From: a virus
Length of the DNA stretch: 25,185 nt
IMG/VR virus record: IMGVR_UViG_3300032286_001098
Span: 1 to 25,185 of that record
Strand: one strand, 5' to 3'
Below are positions 3,001 to 18,615 of the stretch, piece by piece. A model generated the notes under the pieces. The model had not been told where the DNA came from, made no database searches, and was given only the letters and a program-made list of their open reading frames with translations. Each line of letters opens with the position of its first letter. The first letter of the stretch is position 1. The position numbers were made by a program, and so were the translations under genes.

Positions 3001-4445
3001 CCACAGTTCAAAAGGTTAGTGAGGTTATTGATCCAAAAACAGGAGAGGCGAATAAAATAGTACAAGCTGACGGTACAGTCGTCAAGCAAATGATGTCAAC
3101 ACCTGTTCTTGAGTGGCAACCTTTCAATCCAGGGTTGTTTAAATCTGATGGATTTGAATATATCTATAACCACCTCAAAGAAATTGAATACAGTGGTCTG
3201 CCGCCAGCGAAATTGGGTAAGAGAGCTTATCAGATGTTGGCTCAACCTACAGCACAAGAACAAGCAGCGGTTGGCGCGAAAAAGGGAAGAACTGGTAAGT
3301 TTGACGAAGAGTCGGGCATATACCAGAGCGATTTGCAGCAAAAGGTTAATACTGGACAAGGTCTCACAAAATACGAACAAGATGCCTACGACAGAATGAA
3401 CAATGTTGTTGGTGCAAAAAATCCTGATGGAACGGCTTATACTGGTGTAGCAGGAAAAGCGTCGACTGTTGTTTCGACCTTTGCTCCTGGAATAGCCGAA
3501 GACAATGTTGGGCAAACTCTTACTATTCCACAAGAAACAAAACAGAAAGTGGTGCAGGGCGATACTTCATTAATAATTCCTGCTGACCCGAGCCAACTTT
3601 CTTATTCTACGTCACAGCCAACTGCGACACCTTCGACAGAACCTACTGCAGCAACAGTAACTCCTGCGACCCCAGCAGCAGCTACTACACCACCCGCAGT
3701 TGTAGCGACACAAACAACAGAAACAGCTGCAGCAACAACACCATCAACCGAAGAAGAAGTTTTTGAGGTTATGGTAACTGCATCACCAAGAAAAATAAAA
3801 CCAAAACCTACACCTATCCAACCATCTTCTGTCCCTGTCGAGGCTGAAGATGTTAAGATGGGCGAAGGAATCAACTATGGTGAAGCAGCCAAACCATCTA
3901 AGATGACTATTGAAGGATTTAATCCAAAAGATTATCCTGACCAATATTATCCATCTTTGAGGGCATATCTTGCTGGAACGAATATCGGTAATGTTACTGC
4001 TAGAAGAGAAGCAGAAGTTAAGGCGGCTGAGGATGTGAAACAGTTGCTGCTTTCTGGCTCATTGCGACCAAAGGGTAAGACAAAACTTATTCCTATCCAA
4101 ACAACATTCGAAGCACTAACTCCACAAACTCAATTTCAACAGCCAAGTGCTGAAGTAGTGCAGCCACCAGTTCCTCAGATGAAAACGTCATCAACGCAAG
4201 CTCCAATGCTACCGCCAGTAGAACCAATGGAAGAAATAGAAACAAGTAATCAAAATTTAGATGCAAGACTATCAAATCTAGAACAGCAAGTTGCTAGCGT
4301 GGCTCAGTCAACTGCTGCATTAGGTGCAGGAACTGCACAACTTGGTAAAAAGGTTGCGTCGAATACTTTGGCAATGGATAATGCAAATGAATTCCGCACA
4401 GCAAGAAATCTTGACAGAGGTATATCTGAATATCGACGTGTGTAA
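1..4445 (+). CDS. Large virion protein with tail-lysozyme domain, 5'-truncated by window edge
   Basis: The reading frame is open through base 3 and no ribosome binding site precedes the ATG at 27, so the gene almost certainly starts upstream of the window; residue numbers below count from that ATG. Order: charged Lys/Glu coiled segment (about 15-60), hydrophobic stretches at about 75-96, 127-149, 257-283 and a Gly/Leu-rich one at 316-354, a Gly/Ser linker with a perfect 7-residue tandem repeat (about 416-430), a phage tail-lysozyme (Phage_lysozyme2 type) domain at about 454-595 with the motif GIVGNLMAESS (candidate catalytic Glu486) followed by YGLAQWH, a long region of unknown fold, a Pro/Thr/Ala-rich linker (about 1195-1245) and a C-terminal coiled coil (about 1405-1472). 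Likely a baseplate or tail component that cuts peptidoglycan during DNA entry. At over 1472 residues it is far larger than ordinary tail lysozymes, and the hydrophobic segments are unusual for one. Domain call is good; exact virion position is inference. Confidence 0.85.
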   Translation, partial: RGGRRPNPMGGPSSMRVPLRAKSVKGKLEDIQKELETLKKVKGKLGSTIKKKEKKKKEDPKVDPAKDEGFLSSILGKLGEAGIARIILGALGIGATAISLSALPKAIQNTMDRMEGKLPNEDRLVEYVSQKKDSAVMAASAGGLVATAPLAIRMARGASRIISGKTVGGAANVRAAGGTPGAAGLGANPNARGGGYGFLKDPAARNTQVKYVKQVRSLTNRYIREGMTRADAAAKATQYVSNLTAAKGGNFVNPTIKPDRKWLAVGKVLRNAGKVLPAVSAALIAYEISAMSGYHADFENRNINFQQYKKRMSEGYADIVQMIGVPAAMTLLGGAIGSTLGPLGTLGGLAFGVVGGLGLSLFTDKPTDYVGEKLFEMIHEGSVPAEIRNEGSDRRKAEVAQQAASMATGAAATIGATSAMGSTGGSSSSTGGSSSSTGGTPAQVSSLQTTTSATTGELLGVRDSGSAKSALKFFQDKGWTKEQAAGIVGNLMAESSPNLITNSLGDGGKAYGLAQWHADRQTNFSEIYKKPIQQAGFEEQLEFVNWELNNTESKAGKALQTAKDASTAAYVIDAMYERSKGTHRQKRIDYANQLMDEKYVETIGSNAQRAAATKSQAAGTPGPGGTSAGGATAAGIARSGGMGAGATQYMLPSQLEEGQEVTQEYADKANAAIKAKYLFGVDEKELDYLYRVNSRPLDGYEYFVKGKKYRFTKEIKSATPRPGAEYKGGVYVTPPHWTLVKPDQFNDVDKVLAAKDWTGPANVSMERAEKAKKGEIGVREKLFGQDDISQGTSYDVVSNDTVYTADDLKKLDLVNKNGDVDDELAAQKGYKKLPGARGRRTYVFVGPKEAMKAYESTYDTNLKQSPNYTLMQTGFASREEAIAGGYVEQPDKSFKFSGKKNEELQKLNEQIKKLTETGGSKSTPYLTESTKIKLDFDNNIEIEKLKQQRTAMMSGKQLDRGWEPAEIAEGQTISDYIAKKYPAGKVGDEYWVDGQRYKAATVQKVSEVIDPKTGEANKIVQADGTVVKQMMSTPVLEWQPFNPGLFKSDGFEYIYNHLKEIEYSGLPPAKLGKRAYQMLAQPTAQEQAAVGAKKGRTGKFDEESGIYQSDLQQKVNTGQGLTKYEQDAYDRMNNVVGAKNPDGTAYTGVAGKASTVVSTFAPGIAEDNVGQTLTIPQETKQKVVQGDTSLIIPADPSQLSYSTSQPTATPSTEPTAATVTPATPAAATTPPAVVATQTTETAAATTPSTEEEVFEVMVTASPRKIKPKPTPIQPSSVPVEAEDVKMGEGINYGEAAKPSKMTIEGFNPKDYPDQYYPSLRAYLAGTNIGNVTARREAEVKAAEDVKQLLLSGSLRPKGKTKLIPIQTTFEALTPQTQFQQPSAEVVQPPVPQMKTSSTQAPMLPPVEPMEEIETSNQNLDARLSNLEQQVASVAQSTAALGAGTAQLGKKVASNTLAMDNANEFRTARNLDRGISEYRRV
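1272..1313 (+). repeat. Two perfect 21-bp tandem repeats encoding GGSSSST
   Basis: Two identical copies of a 21-bp unit lie head to tail, followed by a partial third (GGT). They encode a flexible Gly/Ser linker just before the lysozyme domain. Identity at nucleotide level suggests recent duplication by slippage and likely length variation between related phages. Confidence 0.9.
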
Positions 4446-4629: not shown

Positions 4630-5085
4630 ATGTATACTTATAATTTTTCTAAACGACTTTGCGAAATTCTCAACACAAAGTTTGACCCAACACAATTTCA
4701 TCCAGATCAAGAATTATCTATTACGCCAACTGATTATTATTCCAAATGGAATTTTACCAATAAAGGTGGAACTATATCTGAGGAACATAAAGAAGCAATT
4801 AGAAAGGGTAGAACTGGGCGCAAAGACTCAGAAGAAACTAAAATAAAGAAAAGTAAAGCCAGGCTGGGCAATCTAAATCCAATGTATGGTATTCATCGTT
4901 TCGGCGAAACTTCTCCTATGTTTGGAAAAATCCACTCACAAGAAACCAGAATCAAATTATCAGAAAAGGCTAAAAATAGAAAAAGTTTTATATGCGATTG
5001 TTGCAATAAAACTGTGAGAGGAAAAAGTAACTGGGATAGACATTTACAATCAAGTAAACATCTATCCCAGTCGAATCACAAATAG
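4630..5085 (+). CDS. Orphan NUMOD3 plus C2H2 zinc-finger protein (SegG-like position, no nuclease domain)
   Basis: 151 residues. The start is fixed by AGGAG (4618-4622) 7 nt before the ATG. Residues about 50-118 hold NUMOD3-type DNA-binding repeats: two copies of the NPMYG/SPMFGK pattern, each next to a segment like S-E-E-T-K-I-K-K-S. The C-terminus carries C-x2-C-x12-H-x5-H, a single C2H2-type finger. No GIY-YIG or HNH catalytic motif is visible, so this is either a remnant of a Seg-type homing endonuclease or a free-standing DNA-binding protein. It lies on the strand opposite gene 32 and the two stop codons abut with no spacer. In T4 the homing endonuclease segG is also next to gene 32, which supports origin as an invader of this locus. 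Confidence 0.8.
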   Translation: MYTYNFSKRLCEILNTKFDPTQFHPDQELSITPTDYYSKWNFTNKGGTISEEHKEAIRKGRTGRKDSEETKIKKSKARLGNLNPMYGIHRFGETSPMFGKIHSQETRIKLSEKAKNRKSFICDCCNKTVRGKSNWDRHLQSSKHLSQSNHK

Positions 5086-6093: not shown

Positions 6094-6674
6094 GCCTGAC
6101 GAGTCAACTTTTTATATTTGTCAACATCAACAGTCAAGAATGCTCCATACTTGCGAACTCTTCTTGATATCTTGGGATAGATGACATCATCGTCTATCTT
6201 CTTATCCCAAATTCGAAAGAAGTCAAAGATGTTATTGAGAATCACAAGAACCTCAATACGGATATCTCCTTGTAGGAAATGCGCTAGCAACTTCGGGTGT
6301 TGCCCATCCTTGACTTCGAATAAACTATTAAACTCTTTTGGGTCAGAGCAGATACTTTTCAACTGCTCAACATAGACTCGACTCATCGAGTCTGTTACCC
6401 TTCTCCACTCCCGAAAAGTTTCTTCCGCAGCTTCTTCCAAGAGCGACTTTGTCCAATTAGTGTCACTGTTAATAAAATTGGCAACAAGAAAACTAACCAT
6501 GTCAGCAGAGTCGTATTTTCTCGCCAGTCGATGAAAGAGGAATTTGTCTTTTCGCTTTTCAAATGAGTCTACCGATACTCTTGTTCTTCCGTCATACTGA
6601 AAGAAGTTATAGTTTTCAGATGTGAAGTGTAACTTGATGGATTGGTAGAGACAATATAAATCATAACCGTTCAT
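6066..6674 (-). CDS. 59: Helicase loader gp59
   Basis: 202 residues (T4 gp59 is 217). It loads the replicative helicase onto gp32-coated forked DNA. I recognise the T4 gp59 pattern in residues 1-60: a start of Y-x-L-Y-x-x-I-K-x-H type, then Y-D-G-R-T-R-V-S, then KRKDKFLFHRLARKY, which parallels KRRDKYFFQKLSEKY in T4. The helical basic C-terminus also fits. Position directly upstream of gene 32 and downstream of gene 33 is the T4 order. Its start overlaps the previous gene by 14 nt, indicating coupled translation. Confidence 0.9.
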   Translation of the reverse strand: MNGYDLYCLYQSIKLHFTSENYNFFQYDGRTRVSVDSFEKRKDKFLFHRLARKYDSADMVSFLVANFINSDTNWTKSLLEEAAEETFREWRRVTDSMSRVYVEQLKSICSDPKEFNSLFEVKDGQHPKLLAHFLQGDIRIEVLVILNNIFDFFRIWDKKIDDDVIYPKISRRVRKYGAFLTVDVDKYKKLTRQALLSDENTI

Positions 6675-6882
6675 TTCTCTTTGCTATCCTTGTCAATTCT
6701 TCGAGCTGCTTGTTCAACTTCTCTACCTGTTCTTCCTGTTTCTTCATTAACTCAGAACCATTGTTCCATGCAGTGAACAATCCTGGAATGATTAGCCACC
6801 ACAAAGAAGCGTGGTTCAGAGTAATCATTGCACCAGTAAAGGTCCAGATGAAGATGTTCCAAACAATAACTTGCCAACTCAT
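6661..6882 (-). CDS. Small two-helix membrane protein with coiled-coil tail, between 33 and 59
   Basis: 73 residues. Two hydrophobic segments (about 3-20 and 27-40, Trp-rich) are followed by a charged heptad-like tail (about 44-73) of the K-x-x-E-E-Q-V-x-K-L type. I do not recognise a family. The start overlaps the gene 33 stop as ATGA and the end overlaps the gene 59 start by 14 nt, so its production is tied to both neighbours. T4 has no gene here. It may tether a replication or late-transcription factor to the membrane, but that is a guess. Confidence 0.75.
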   Translation of the reverse strand: MSWQVIVWNIFIWTFTGAMITLNHASLWWLIIPGLFTAWNNGSELMKKQEEQVEKLNKQLEELTRIAKRNERL

Positions 6883-7130
6883 ATAGGCAGTCGACTAGAT
6901 CTTGGTAGATAACGCAGTTCTTGCGCTTCGCCTTGGATAAGACTCTTCAAAGAATCATTGATTAGCGTAGCAGCAATCTCGATCTCTAGGTTGTTCTCTT
7001 CGCAATATGTTGCGACTGCATCCATGTGGTCAATCTTATCTCGCTGGGCAAGTTCGATTATCATGATAGAAAACTTGTTCTTTTCTTCTCGAGTTGCCAT
7101 TTTCTTTACACTCTTAGTTTGTAGTAGCAT
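6879..7130 (-). CDS. 33: Late-transcription co-activator gp33
   Basis: 83 residues. In T4, gp33 bridges host RNA polymerase (beta flap) and the sliding clamp so that gp55-polymerase fires at late promoters. The body matches the gp33 pattern: a helix with I-x-x-L then D-A-V-A-T-Y-C-E-E-N (T4: EATTAFLEEN), then E-I-E-x-A-A-x-L-I and S-L-x-x-x-I-Q-G-E-A. The first ATG overlaps the guaC stop as TAATG and has GGGA upstream; a second Met (residue 11, position 7100) is an alternative start with only a weak A-rich SD. Its presence agrees with the TATAAATA late promoters at 13743 and 16769. A gene 55-like sigma factor is not in this window. Confidence 0.85.
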   Translation of the reverse strand: MLLQTKSVKKMATREEKNKFSIMIIELAQRDKIDHMDAVATYCEENNLEIEIAATLINDSLKSLIQGEAQELRYLPRSSRLPI

Positions 7131-8164
7131 TAGCCGTTCCCAAAGATGTTATTGAGTTGGCGGTTGACTCGAACGAATCGAGCGTTGTCGCTGAGTTCCA
7201 TTAGATTACGTGCACCAAGGTAAGTACAAGCCGAGCGTAGACCGCCTAGCATTTCATTTACAGTGCGGTCTACTGGTCCCTTGTACTTCAAAATGACTTC
7301 TTTACCTTCAGATGCGCGATAGTCAGCCACACCACCATTATGTAGATCCTGCGCAACTTTTGACGCCATTCCATAAAAATGGACGTTGCTCATATATTCT
7401 ACTTTATCCTTACGCTCAGGAGACAGTCCTTCTTCATGACCAGCAAACAAACCGCCAATCATCACAAAGTCTGCGCCAGCACCGAATGCCTTGGCGACAT
7501 CTCCAGGACAAGTGATACCACCGTCTGCACAAACAGAATGCACGTCCGCACACTCAAGTACTGCAGAGAACTGTGGATAACCGATGCCTGTCAACTTGCG
7601 AGTAGTACAAACAGAACCAGGACCGATACCCACCTTTACGATATCAATTCCGATGAGCGACAGTTCGTGTACCTGCTCAGGAGTGACTACGTTACCTGCC
7701 ATGATAGGCATGGTTGGGTAAGTGTCAACGATTCGCTTCAAGGCATCAGTAAACTGCGTTGTGTATCCGTTTGCAACGTCGACGCAAATACCGTACGGTG
7801 AATTAATTTCGCCAATAGTAACATGAGTCATAAACTCGTGCAGTTTAGTCATATCATCTTCGCCGATACCCATACTGTAGAAGCAGTTCCTGGACGCCTC
7901 TTCACGCTGGAAGAATGCTACGAGTTCTTCGAGGGAGTAATGCTTTACGAGAGCAGTTAGCATCTTATGCTTGTATAAAGACTTCGCCATCTCAAAAGTT
8001 CCAACACCGTCCATGTTTGCGGCGATAATTGGGATCACACCAGTAGGATATTCTAATTCTACTTCACTACGAGAAGCAACATCTCCTTGGCACGGAACCA
8101 TCAACACATCGGAATAGTCCAACTTCTCGTCGTGGTGGAGAAACTTATCTTCATAATATTCCAT
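7130..8164 (-). CDS. guaC: GMP reductase
   Basis: 344 residues; reduces GMP to IMP with NADPH, releasing ammonia. Alignment from memory to E. coli GuaC is near full length: PIIAANMDGVGTFEMA, AGNVVT, KVGIGPGSVCTTRKLTG, GDVAKAFGAGADFVMIGG, GGVADYRASEGK, MLGGLRSACTYLGA and the C-terminal RV-x-x-Q-x-N-x-IF. With the ATG at 8164 the catalytic Cys falls at residue 186, exactly as in E. coli. A GTG at 8170 overlaps the previous stop but sits too close to the GGAAG site, which is well placed (8 nt) for the ATG, so I choose 8164. The lack of CBS domains and the GuaC-type motif separate it from IMP dehydrogenase. It heads the 33-59-32 operon. It may turn scavenged GMP into IMP for adenine nucleotides. 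Confidence 0.95.
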   Translation of the reverse strand: MEYYEDKFLHHDEKLDYSDVLMVPCQGDVASRSEVELEYPTGVIPIIAANMDGVGTFEMAKSLYKHKMLTALVKHYSLEELVAFFQREEASRNCFYSMGIGEDDMTKLHEFMTHVTIGEINSPYGICVDVANGYTTQFTDALKRIVDTYPTMPIMAGNVVTPEQVHELSLIGIDIVKVGIGPGSVCTTRKLTGIGYPQFSAVLECADVHSVCADGGITCPGDVAKAFGAGADFVMIGGLFAGHEEGLSPERKDKVEYMSNVHFYGMASKVAQDLHNGGVADYRASEGKEVILKYKGPVDRTVNEMLGGLRSACTYLGARNLMELSDNARFVRVNRQLNNIFGNG

Positions 8165-8166
8165 AA

Positions 8167-8766
8167 TCACTTCTTCCTATAAAAGATATGAGCACCAATA
8201 GTAGTGAACAATTTCATTGTTTTTGCCCATGCTGGGTCAACATAATTTGCATGGTAATACAAAACGTCAGGAGTTATTATACGCGATCTGCGGTTAGAAA
8301 GCAAGACATCTTCGGCAATTTTAACAGACTCGATATATCCACGGCGGTCGTGGATAATGTCAGACTTGCCGTCACAAACCCAAGAGAACTGACAACCCCT
8401 ACTACTCTGGTCAAGCACAACACCACAAACAGTTCTTGGGAACACGTGGCTTTGCACTCGGTTCATCGTAACAGTAGCGACAGCCAACTTACCCTCAACT
8501 GGTTCTAGGTTTGCTTCGAAGTAAATGTTCTTGGCAAGACATTCAGTCTCGTTACGAATAAAGTCTACGTGGGAAAGTTTCTTGCGGAGGTCTTTGATGA
8601 TGTCATCAGCAGACTTCTGATTGTTGTACAATTCGTACTCTAGATTCTTGTATCGAAGGTTGGCTTCATAGATTTCTTTTCCCAAGAAAAGAGAGAGGGA
8701 AGCGAAGAAAATAAACGCGCACATACGCACCAAGTCCATAGGACTATGGGTTATACTCTTTTGCAT
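8167..8766 (-). CDS. SleB/CwlJ-type cell-wall hydrolase with N-terminal membrane anchor
   Basis: 199 residues from the ATG at 8766, chosen for GAGG 5 nt upstream; an earlier in-frame start at 8826 would overlap the previous gene by about 50 nt. A hydrophobic segment (about 11-29) without a clear cleavage site is followed by a short coiled linker (about 35-65) and a Hydrolase_2 (SleB) domain (about 74-199). Seen: E-C-L-A-K-N-I-Y-F-E-A-N with the catalytic Glu84, then GKLAVATVTMNRV, TVCGVV and CQFSWVCDG. The family cuts muralactam or glycan strands as lytic transglycosylase or amidase. The layout resembles a signal-anchor endolysin that is exported by the host Sec pathway. It is a good candidate for the phage lysin, although no holin is recognisable beside it. 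Confidence 0.9.
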   Translation of the reverse strand: MQKSITHSPMDLVRMCAFIFFASLSLFLGKEIYEANLRYKNLEYELYNNQKSADDIIKDLRKKLSHVDFIRNETECLAKNIYFEANLEPVEGKLAVATVTMNRVQSHVFPRTVCGVVLDQSSRGCQFSWVCDGKSDIIHDRRGYIESVKIAEDVLLSNRRSRIITPDVLYYHANYVDPAWAKTMKLFTTIGAHIFYRKK

Positions 8767-12899: not shown

Positions 12900-12939
12900 G
12901 AAAAAAGGTAGGTTTATTCTGTTACCAAGAAAACCTACC
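12900..12939 (-). terminator. Terminator of the HNH-tmRNA unit
   Basis: On the minus strand GGTAGGTTT and AAACCTACC form a perfect 9-bp stem (12931-12939 with 12907-12915) with a 15-nt loop, followed directly by six T (12901-12906). It lies just after the tmRNA coding piece. Confidence 0.9.
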
Positions 12940-12964
12940 GAAAACTCTTGTACTAACGTGCTAA

Positions 12965-13003
12965 TTAAGCAGCGATAGCCTGATAGTAAGATGCGTCATT
13001 GGC
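12965..13003 (-). other. tmRNA tag reading frame, ANDASYYQAIAA-stop
   Basis: Starting at a GCC resume codon (13003-13001) preceded by GTAAAT, the frame reads A-N-D-A-S-Y-Y-Q-A-I-A-A and TAA. It begins with AND and ends with a hydrophobic residue plus Ala-Ala, as do bacterial tags (E. coli ANDENYALAA), so it should be recognised by ClpXP-type proteases. The exact resume codon is inferred from the AND alignment. Confidence 0.85.
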
Positions 13004-13089
13004 ATTTACATTTTTTTGCGCGAATTACGTTCGTCGCCTTTCGGGTAGTCAGTCTTCCTATTATACGCCAATCGAAACCTGTCAGCCCC

Positions 13090-13170
13090 ATCAAAAGCAT
13101 ACTGCAAGGAACAACCTAATCCTTTTTCAGTTGTTTACCGTTGCTATTTCAGGGCAACGCAATATGCTTT
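13090..13170 (-). ncRNA. Intervening segment of the permuted tmRNA
   Basis: Joins the CCA end of the acceptor piece to the 5' end of the coding piece in the precursor. AAAAGCATA and TATGCTTTT pair (sharing the final A of CCA), stacking on the acceptor stem; two inner hairpins give a cloverleaf-like fold. It is expected to be removed by RNase P and 3' processing, leaving two RNAs. Confidence 0.8.
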
Positions 13171-13225
13171 TGGTGGAGCTGGGGGTATCGAAACCCCGTC
13201 TTGCCGTTTTTACGATTTCCTCATA

Positions 13226-13720
13226 CTACCATATCAACTTTCTACCTACACTCCAACCATCTGGAATTTCTTCTGACTTCGGAATACATTTAGAAATTTT
13301 TAACTCTTGATTATATATCCACTTTTTACCAAAGTTTGAATTTTTCTCTCCACTTTGGTGCTTGATATTTTTAAATGTTTGTTTTCGTTTCGCTTTTGCT
13401 TCATCAGTTTGAGCCAATGAAGCAACTTGTTTCCTAAACTCTTCATTAATGGCAAAATTGCCTTGGGTTTGTGTTCCAGTAAATGGATTTCCTAACCTCT
13501 TCAATTTTTCTTTGGCTGCTTCAGACTGAACTTGACGTATCAATTCATCTCTCGGAATCATCTTGGATAGTCCTTGCCAAGCGAGATAGTCTTGCCAATG
13601 ACCGTGCTCTTCAAACAATCTTTTATGGGCTTCGGCGTGTTCTTCTACACTCAGGTCTATTAAGTTAGAAGGATCATCGCTTCCGCCCATATACTTCGGT
13701 ATTATATGATGTTTATGCAT
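13226..13720 (-). CDS. HNH homing-type endonuclease
   Basis: 164 residues. Residues 1-35 hold H-K-H-H-I-I-P-K-Y-M-G-G, S-N-L-I-D-L and E-E-H-A-E-A-H-K, the HNH catalytic frame typical of phage free-standing homing nucleases. The middle (about 60-125) is basic with a partial NUMOD-like T-F-K-N...G-E-K-N-S-N-F-G-K. The end (about 130-164) W-I-Y-N...C-I-P...P-D-G-W is a recurrent C-terminal DNA-binding module in such proteins. Start is firm: AAGGAG lies 7 nt before the ATG, just below a TATAAATA late promoter. The stop codon lies inside the first helix of the tmRNA acceptor piece, so both probably share one transcript. Confidence 0.88.
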   Translation of the reverse strand: MHKHHIIPKYMGGSDDPSNLIDLSVEEHAEAHKRLFEEHGHWQDYLAWQGLSKMIPRDELIRQVQSEAAKEKLKRLGNPFTGTQTQGNFAINEEFRKQVASLAQTDEAKAKRKQTFKNIKHQSGEKNSNFGKKWIYNQELKISKCIPKSEEIPDGWSVGRKLIW

Positions 13721-13742: not shown

Positions 13743-13750
13743 TATTTATA
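13743..13750 (-). promoter_or_regulatory. T4-type late promoter core TATAAATA
   Basis: Exact T4 late consensus on the minus strand, 23 nt before the HNH start codon with the SD between them. Its first T is the last T of the upstream terminator tract. It would be served by gp55-like sigma and the gp33 encoded at 6879. Confidence 0.85.
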
Positions 13751-13775
13751 AAAAGTGCGATTCCCTAAATCGCAC
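13750..13775 (-). terminator. Terminator fused to late promoter
   Basis: On the minus strand GTGCGATT, loop TAGGG, AATCGCAC (8 perfect pairs), then TTTTT running straight into TATAAATA. It ends the transcript coming from the glycine-zipper gene and isolates the late unit. Confidence 0.88.
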
Positions 13776-13827
13776 CCCCGTCCAAGATGCCTTTAGTTAA
13801 AGGTTTACTACCATTATTTTTTATTTA

Positions 13828-18141: not shown

Positions 18142-18615
18142 TTAGCAGTCGCTGTCGCGCAACTGCTGATTCAGCAGATCGCCGATGCTGGTAGAATATG
18201 AGTTCGTTCGCTTTATTGTCCAACCTTCACGGAGGTCCTTCTGGGTTTCCAGGGCAAGCCACTCAGGAATCCAAGTCTTGTGCTTGACGTAACCTTGTCG
18301 TGCCAAGTCCTCGGTCAAAAACTTGGCTTCCTTCAGCCCCAAGTTGAACTCCTCGCGGAAATACTTGACCGCACGAACCTTGTCCATCGGACCGAGAGAC
18401 CGCAGAAACTCGAGTTGTCCGTGGGTGATGTTGATATTACCGAAACCAGTCAGGACGACCTCAGCAGCCGTGACATCGCCGATGACTGCCTGAGCGAACA
18501 CATCGGGATGCGTTTCCGCGATCTTGAGAGCCACCTCAGCCAGACCAGCGTCGGTCAGGTCACGAGCGATGCTCAGAACGTTCTTGCCGTTGTACATGAA
18601 ATTCAACTTGTTCAT
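18142..18615 (-). CDS. Protein with ribosomal L7/L12 C-terminal-like motif
   Basis: 157 residues. In the middle (about 78-107) D-K-V-R-A-V-K-Y-F-R, then L-G-L-K-E-A-K-F-L-T-E-D matches the L7/L12 C-terminal domain motif (K-I-x-V-I-K-x-V-R..LGLKEAKDLV). The rest, with helices I-A-R-D-L and A-L-K-I-A-E, is unrecognised. In the ribosome this motif recruits GTPase factors; whether the phage protein does so is unknown. SD AAGGA is 6 nt before the ATG. Confidence 0.85.
   Translation of the reverse strand: MNKLNFMYNGKNVLSIARDLTDAGLAEVALKIAETHPDVFAQAVIGDVTAAEVVLTGFGNINITHGQLEFLRSLGPMDKVRAVKYFREEFNLGLKEAKFLTEDLARQGYVKHKTWIPEWLALETQKDLREGWTIKRTNSYSTSIGDLLNQQLRDSDC

Follow-up and report, generated by a model that had tools for sequence, protein, structure and literature searches.

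tmRNA is a near-universal ribosome-rescue RNA. Its circularly permuted, two-piece form is already known as a class in phages: such a gene has been described in Melnitz, a T4-like Methylophilales phage, in work that also puts the number of unique two-piece tmRNA structures in sequenced phages at 53, of which 50 come from marine or aquatic samples (PMC9004378), and the Rfam family RF04321 has been described together with a list of 79 unique phage tmRNA sequences of all forms (PMC11915505). Free-standing homing endonuclease genes (HEGs) have a literature of their own. T4 SegB, as summarized in passages of two papers (Brok-Volchanskaya 2008, via PMC13096335 and PMC3984707), is a free-standing HEG of the tRNA region of T4-like phages. 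In fungal mitochondria, the insertion of mobile ORFs has produced gene hybrids in atp6 of Allomyces and in atp6, atp9, cox2 and nad3 of Glomus (PMC3630166). In the open-access literature, we found no paper describing free-standing HEGs, of either the HNH or the GIY-YIG type, in permuted tmRNA genes.

Here, we are concerned with a single gene, which lies in a 25,185-nt stretch of viral DNA (IMG/VR record IMGVR_UViG_3300032286_001098; hereafter, the window). How did its tmRNA come to have the halves that it now has? We argue, with a probability of about 0.82, that a free-standing homing-endonuclease cassette invaded the gene, replaced the half that it had severed, and left a tmRNA that is chimeric but complete and permuted. 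As a permuted tmRNA, the gene is an ordinary new example; what is new, as far as sequence comparison can carry the point, is an endonuclease cassette that appears to break and rebuild a phage permuted tmRNA, a variant of a mobile-element kind that is already known. The HEG sits inside the tmRNA gene, and an earlier sequence-only reading of this DNA did not mention it. The parts of the locus, all on the minus strand, are given below in the order in which that strand is read (L numbers are our handles for the other loci compared).

13768-13812 (-): the recipient tmRNA's original acceptor half, now displaced, GGTAGTAAACCTTTAACTAAAGGCATCTTGGACGGGGGTGCGATT, broken at the T-loop end (identical over 45 nt to the L171 acceptor half; nhmmer match without CCA)
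13750-13775 (-): terminator-like hairpin of the target T-loop GTGCGATT and the left end of the element AATCGCAC, then a T run (fold, -11.1 kcal/mol)
13743-13750 (-): T4-type late-promoter-like sequence TATAAATA before the endonuclease gene (from sequence and its recurrence in the family)
13226-13720 (-): HNH homing endonuclease gene, 164 aa (phrog_655 homing endonuclease, E 3.6e-17)
13171-13230 (-): functional (new) acceptor piece, with P2 5' strand, T-arm, acceptor 3' strand and CCA (RF04321; after the HEG stop, 100% identical in L009 and L011)
13090-13170 (-): intervening spacer, 81 nt, a hairpin extending the acceptor stem (fold; 81/81 identical in L011; 4 nt in L171)
13044-13089 (-): 5' part of the coding piece, with acceptor 5' strand, D-loop equivalent and P2 3' strand ending CTACC (46/46 identical in L011)
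12968-13003 (-): tag reading frame ANDASYYQAIAA, stop TAA at 12967-12965, native to the recipient clade (from sequence and the tags of relatives)
12907-12939 (-): 3' terminal hairpin with CTTGGTAACAGAA, then T6 (the alpha_tmRNA match reaches 12907; fold, -13.3 kcal/mol)

The sequence-only reading had proposed that the minus strand carries a two-piece tmRNA, circularly permuted, and covariance models bear it out: RF04321 (Rfam tmRNA_permuted) matches 13230-12965 (-) over its full length, scoring 119.8 bits where the cut-off is 47 (E 3.2e-23), and alpha_tmRNA (RF01849) matches 13288-12907 (-) at 68.6 bits against a cut-off of 50. The acceptor stem, the TTTCGA element, the 81-nt spacer and the tag all lie where that reading had placed them. 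Read from the sequence, CCA stands at 13173-13171, upstream of the coding piece, which begins GGGGCTGA at 13089, and the acceptor stem is GGGGCUG/CAGCUCC, with the G3-U70 pair of alanine identity; the T-arm is GGGGU-UUCGAU-ACCCC, with a loop of 6 nt. The tag frame is open and ends in a hydrophobic residue and AA, in the AND...A-I/L/M-AA pattern of the relatives. The tmRNA strand folds better than 100 of 100 dinucleotide shuffles (z -4.7), and its predicted fold includes an acceptor stem lengthened by the spacer helix. A blastn comparison of the window tmRNA with named phages gave partial matches only (E > 0.01).

The window itself is a fragment of a T4-like phage, with genes for gp32, gp59, gp33, PhoH, a PDDEXK exonuclease and IMPDH, and its gp32 is nearest, among isolates, to those of cyanophages, pelagiphage HTVC008M and Melnitz. 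In many gp32 relatives whose contigs reach the locus, a permuted tmRNA lies between the exonuclease and gp33 genes; a permuted tmRNA in a T4-like phage had been called unusual, and it proves instead to be common in this phage clade, besides having published examples. Among the loci found, the shortest spacer has 4 nt and the longest 92 nt, and eight loci (L056, L064, L066, L070, L085, L108, L112 and L171) have only 4-5 nt between CCA and the coding piece. At L234 (4762-5163), the tmRNA match spans 402 nt, with a much longer spacer that contains a small open reading frame. Elsewhere in the window, the phage IMP dehydrogenase/GMP reductase-like gene (7130-8170, -) is kept beside gp33 in most relatives, and a 157-aa protein (18142-18615, -) has a weak match, just under the Pfam cut-off, to the C-terminal domain of ribosomal L7/L12.

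The stop codon of the HEG (13228-13226) overlaps the 5' edge of the acceptor piece (13230) and is part of the 5' strand of tmRNA helix P2. The Pfam HNH score of its product, 20.4 bits, falls just under the cut-off of 21.4, and that of the L131 homologue is 23.4 bits; the H, N and H residues are invariant in the alignment of HEG homologues. The late-promoter-like sequence before the gene is weak evidence on its own, because two copies occur in the window, counting both strands, and about two are expected from base composition; (C/T)ATAAATA or CTAAATA precedes most members of the endonuclease family. Expression probably moves under this late-type promoter of the element. A second probable homing-endonuclease gene, with a NUMOD3 motif and a zinc finger, lies at 4630-5085 (+), between the tape-measure and gp32 genes.

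What did the site look like before the cassette came? The closest relative, L171 (exonuclease 95% and PhoH 98% identical in amino acids; IMPDH, L044 on the same contig, 96%), carries a tmRNA that is intact and free of any HEG, and its acceptor half matches the displaced fragment of the window at 45 of 45 nt. Because L171 is intact and this match is complete, about 66 nt of the recipient, from the end of the T-arm to GGCTACC, gave way to about 720 nt of HEG and new tRNA-like domain. At the point where the window has its HEG, the acceptor piece of two other relatives that lack the gene, L007 and L047, is unbroken, and alleles with the HEG (the window and L011) and without it (L171, L007 and L047) are found at one site in related genomes.

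The comparison with L011, a distantly related phage, marks out what was transferred. Between the two, the HEG is 99.2% identical, and the acceptor piece, the spacer and the coding piece as far as CTACC are 100% identical (182 nt); the flanks up- and downstream are 51-53% identical, the tag coding sequence 57%, and gp33 and gp59 51-52% in amino acids. The right end of the cassette is the segment 13044-13089, beyond which identity to L011 drops to 82% and then to 57%. L009 is identical to L011 over the cassette segment. The displaced half and the tag domain remain particular to each recipient, the window and L011. Between the window and its closest relative, the tRNA-like domains are no more than 67-69% identical, whereas those of that relative and L007 are 83-90% identical. 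By these comparisons, the cassette, that is, the HEG and a complete tRNA-like domain, is foreign to the recipient clade and mobile.

In the tRNA-like domain, the 7 nt that precede GAC pair with the 7 nt that follow TTCGA. We scored this pairing, leaving out L236 and L239, where the coding strand was not found automatically, and L241, where the wrong strand was picked. Over 19 distinct strand pairs, a locus's own strands pair at a mean of 6.1 of 7 positions and foreign combinations at 4.3. The displaced half pairs at 7/7 with an L171-type coding strand and at 3/7 with the present one; the new acceptor half pairs at 6/7 with the present coding strand and at 1/7 with that of L171. Duplex energies, also computed for the displaced and new halves, likewise have the foreign halves pairing mutually and the displaced half no longer doing so. 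By these counts, the pairing partners of the tRNA-like domain were swapped as a unit.

The arrangement is not peculiar to the window. An HEG in the tmRNA, with an HNH or a GIY-YIG head on what aligns as a common C-terminal region, recurs in at least 10 further contigs, and the family members are all metagenome contigs. Scans with the L131 HNH and L015 GIY-YIG endonucleases gave L212, L215, L216, L224, L225 and L233-L241. Displaced halves are present in L131, L015, L212, L215, L216, L224, L225, L233 and L236-L241; in L227, L234 and L235, they are weak or absent. Most members have, in order, a displaced half ending at or near the T-loop, the late-promoter-like sequence, the HEG and a new acceptor half, which in most of them overlaps or adjoins the 3' end of the HEG. 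L131, whose HNH HEG is diverged (56-58% in amino acids), has the same architecture as the window and a tmRNA that scores 115 bits; it has two displaced halves, one ahead of the HEG and another, older, immediately following the exonuclease gene. Such recognizable fragments, left at each insertion, make the insertion history directly readable. In one group of GIY-YIG members (L015, L225 and L233), the break follows GGACGC and so comes slightly earlier, by a few bases. At the left end of many elements, the T-loop stands in inverted copy (TCGAAC in L215, L216 and L236-L241; AATCGCAC in the window) and forms a hairpin with the target, which is terminator-like in the window and L011. Clustered at 90% identity, the 24 HEG sequences that we examined fall into 18 groups.

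Other HEGs lie near tmRNAs in other ways. In L217, L132-L134 and L218, an HNH HEG is in the spacer between CCA and GGGG, not in the T-loop, and at L217 (3880-4400), the 3' end of the homing endonuclease gene is the 3' arm of the spacer, adjoining GGGG. One 8.5-kb phage contig, L010, carries two different permuted tmRNAs (670-847 and 6623-6873, -), one with a very short spacer and the other behind an HNH gene; the same tmRNA and HNH gene are found in L013 and L019. These three loci, where the HNH gene ends at the tmRNA, were not counted, because no displaced half was seen. L165, taken up as a further broken T-loop, was rejected, as the pattern match there is an ordinary one-piece tmRNA.

What the HNH and GIY-YIG members have in common is the C-terminal region. 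Residues 62-163 of the window HEG product are 32-46% identical to GIY-YIG members, with E values as low as 4e-14, and L131 and L216 are 57% identical over 141 residues. Of the 29 contigs whose HEG has this region, 24 have it within or next to a permuted tmRNA; for HEGs with the HNH head only, the count is 0 of 30, all but a few near copies among them having been searched one by one. The difference gives a Fisher p of 5e-12, or 3e-8 after a rough thinning of near copies, where adjacency was labelled by comparing coordinates by hand and the contigs are not fully independent. In one of the five exceptions, L226, the contig ends just after the new acceptor half; the other four (L142, L221, L229 and L230) have tRNA neighbourhoods, and what is targeted may therefore be any T-loop. 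Together, these alignments and counts suggest that the C-terminal region directs the enzyme to T-loops. The tRNA neighbourhood of L221 also has, upstream of the homing endonuclease gene, a match to the abiF RNA family (RF03085) at 3744-3780.

The historical event (insertion, replacement, a displaced half, a common cassette, sharp borders, compensating pairs and recurrence) is well supported by these comparisons, and we propose that it ran as follows. In a cell infected by two phages, the endonuclease made by one would cut the HEG-free tmRNA gene of the other at the T-loop, at or near GGGTGCGATT. Repair from the donor would copy the HEG and the whole tRNA-like domain, that is, the acceptor piece, the spacer and the first 46 nt of the coding piece, in a tract reaching as far as the conserved end of helix P2. 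The recipient's acceptor half would stay upstream as a displaced fragment, closed off by the terminator-like hairpin and the late-promoter-like sequence, and its tag and pseudoknot domain would stay downstream; the new halves would pair mutually in a tmRNA that is presumably active in trans-translation. The tract ends that survive may be those that take the two halves of the domain from a single source, and this would account for a border at the end of P2. It could be selection on the RNA, not the element itself, that sets the right border of the cassette.

Could the endonuclease be a bystander? T4-like phages recombine freely, and free-standing HEGs are common; ordinary recombination might have swapped the HEG and the tRNA-like domain together, and cutting by the enzyme is, after all, putative. 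We consider this improbable, given that many diverged insertions, by two nuclease types, share one insertion point in the T-loop or adjacent T-stem and that adjacency to a tmRNA follows the C-terminal region of the endonuclease. The same insertion point invites the thought of a spliced intron, with the displaced half as a true 5' exon that is joined to the T-arm once the HEG is removed, since the T-loop of tmRNA is also where group I introns break in (PMC11915505). This we find hardly credible and have rejected: at Rfam gathering cut-offs, no group I or group II intron family is found in the window, a second acceptor half, which is complete, lies beyond the HEG and pairs with the coding strand, as the displaced one does not, and a terminator-like hairpin follows the displaced half.

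If the cassette is accepted, the tmRNA that it rebuilt might still be a dying pseudogene, kept merely as the flank of an HEG; the 6-nt loop of the T-arm would fit, as would the lack of any tmRNA call by ARAGORN on the window. That seems quite improbable when all tRNA-like and tag features are intact, when the same T-arm with its 6-nt loop occurs in the phage tmRNA of L021 with no HEG beside it, and when the more diverged insertion L131 still scores as it does. Moreover, in the alignment, a stem in the recipient's own domain that is CTGA/TCAG in L011 and the relatives is CGAA/TTCG in the window, a double compensating change. The sequence-only reading had offered a different history, in which the phage captured a permuted ssrA from its host and thereby sets its own tag and dose. 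The alpha-type 3' part of the gene lends this something, and phage tags do differ among themselves. We nevertheless hold it very improbable, and its account of the gene's origin, as one piece from a host, is already contradicted: the gene is a feature of the clade, its tag domain comes from the phage's own clade, and its tRNA-like domain is foreign to that clade and arrived with an HEG shared with a distant phage. HEG relatives are few in bacterial genomes, and we found no host copy, as the five bacterial loci checked gave no RNA family match; the HNH relatives in S-SKS1 and S-B05 have no tmRNA annotated beside them. Nor is there support for a special tag set by the phage, because the tag is of the ordinary kind, the usual degradation type.

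A further idea, which goes beyond the invasion by an endonuclease cassette that we favor, is that the HEG and the tmRNA are one regulated unit, in which the cassette limits its own endonuclease while driving domain swapping among phage tmRNAs. Maturation of the tmRNA from a transcript would destroy the HEG stop codon, since that codon falls within the acceptor piece, either in helix P2 or immediately beyond it. If the idea were true, the HEG message, its stop codon lost, would be a non-stop substrate of the very tmRNA that it carries. We regard this as doubtful.

T-loop endonucleases that carry a rebuilt tRNA-like domain would explain chimeric phage tmRNAs, and such a cassette would offer a route for the transfer of RNA domains between lineages; it would also be a natural case of two nuclease types with what looks like one common targeting region. 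How does the locus stand beside the known systems? Melnitz, like the window, is a T4-like aquatic phage with a permuted two-piece tmRNA between PDDEXK nuclease and gp33 genes (PMC9004378), but no endonuclease gene is annotated in or beside its tmRNA, and no foreign tRNA-like domain is reported for it in the parts of that paper that concern the gene. SegB, in the passages that describe it, is said to cut within tRNA-containing sequences and to favor the inheritance of neighbouring tRNA genes, which is much like what we propose; as described there, it is not inside an RNA gene, and no rebuilt target half is mentioned. The group I introns of tmRNA interrupt the gene at the T-loop, as the cassette does, and some carry HEGs, of the LAGLIDADG type (PMC11915505); they self-splice and leave the gene interrupted, whereas no intron was found in the window, where it is the DNA itself that is rebuilt. 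Integrative islands of tmRNA genes (Islander, PMC4383910) also split their target, restore it with a carried piece and leave a displaced fragment, but they are whole islands, moved by a tyrosine integrase in a bacterial chromosome, unlike the cassette. The nearest working analogue, which we do not claim as a relative, is the mobile-ORF gene hybrid (PMC3630166). There, too, an endonuclease ORF, of LAGLIDADG or GIY-YIG type, inserts, brings a foreign replacement and leaves the native part displaced. Those hybrids arise in protein genes, at 3' ends, in mitochondria; here, the 5' half of a phage RNA gene is replaced, with a pairing between pieces to be kept, and the gene-hybrid principle of fungal mitochondria would thus extend to a structured RNA in phages.
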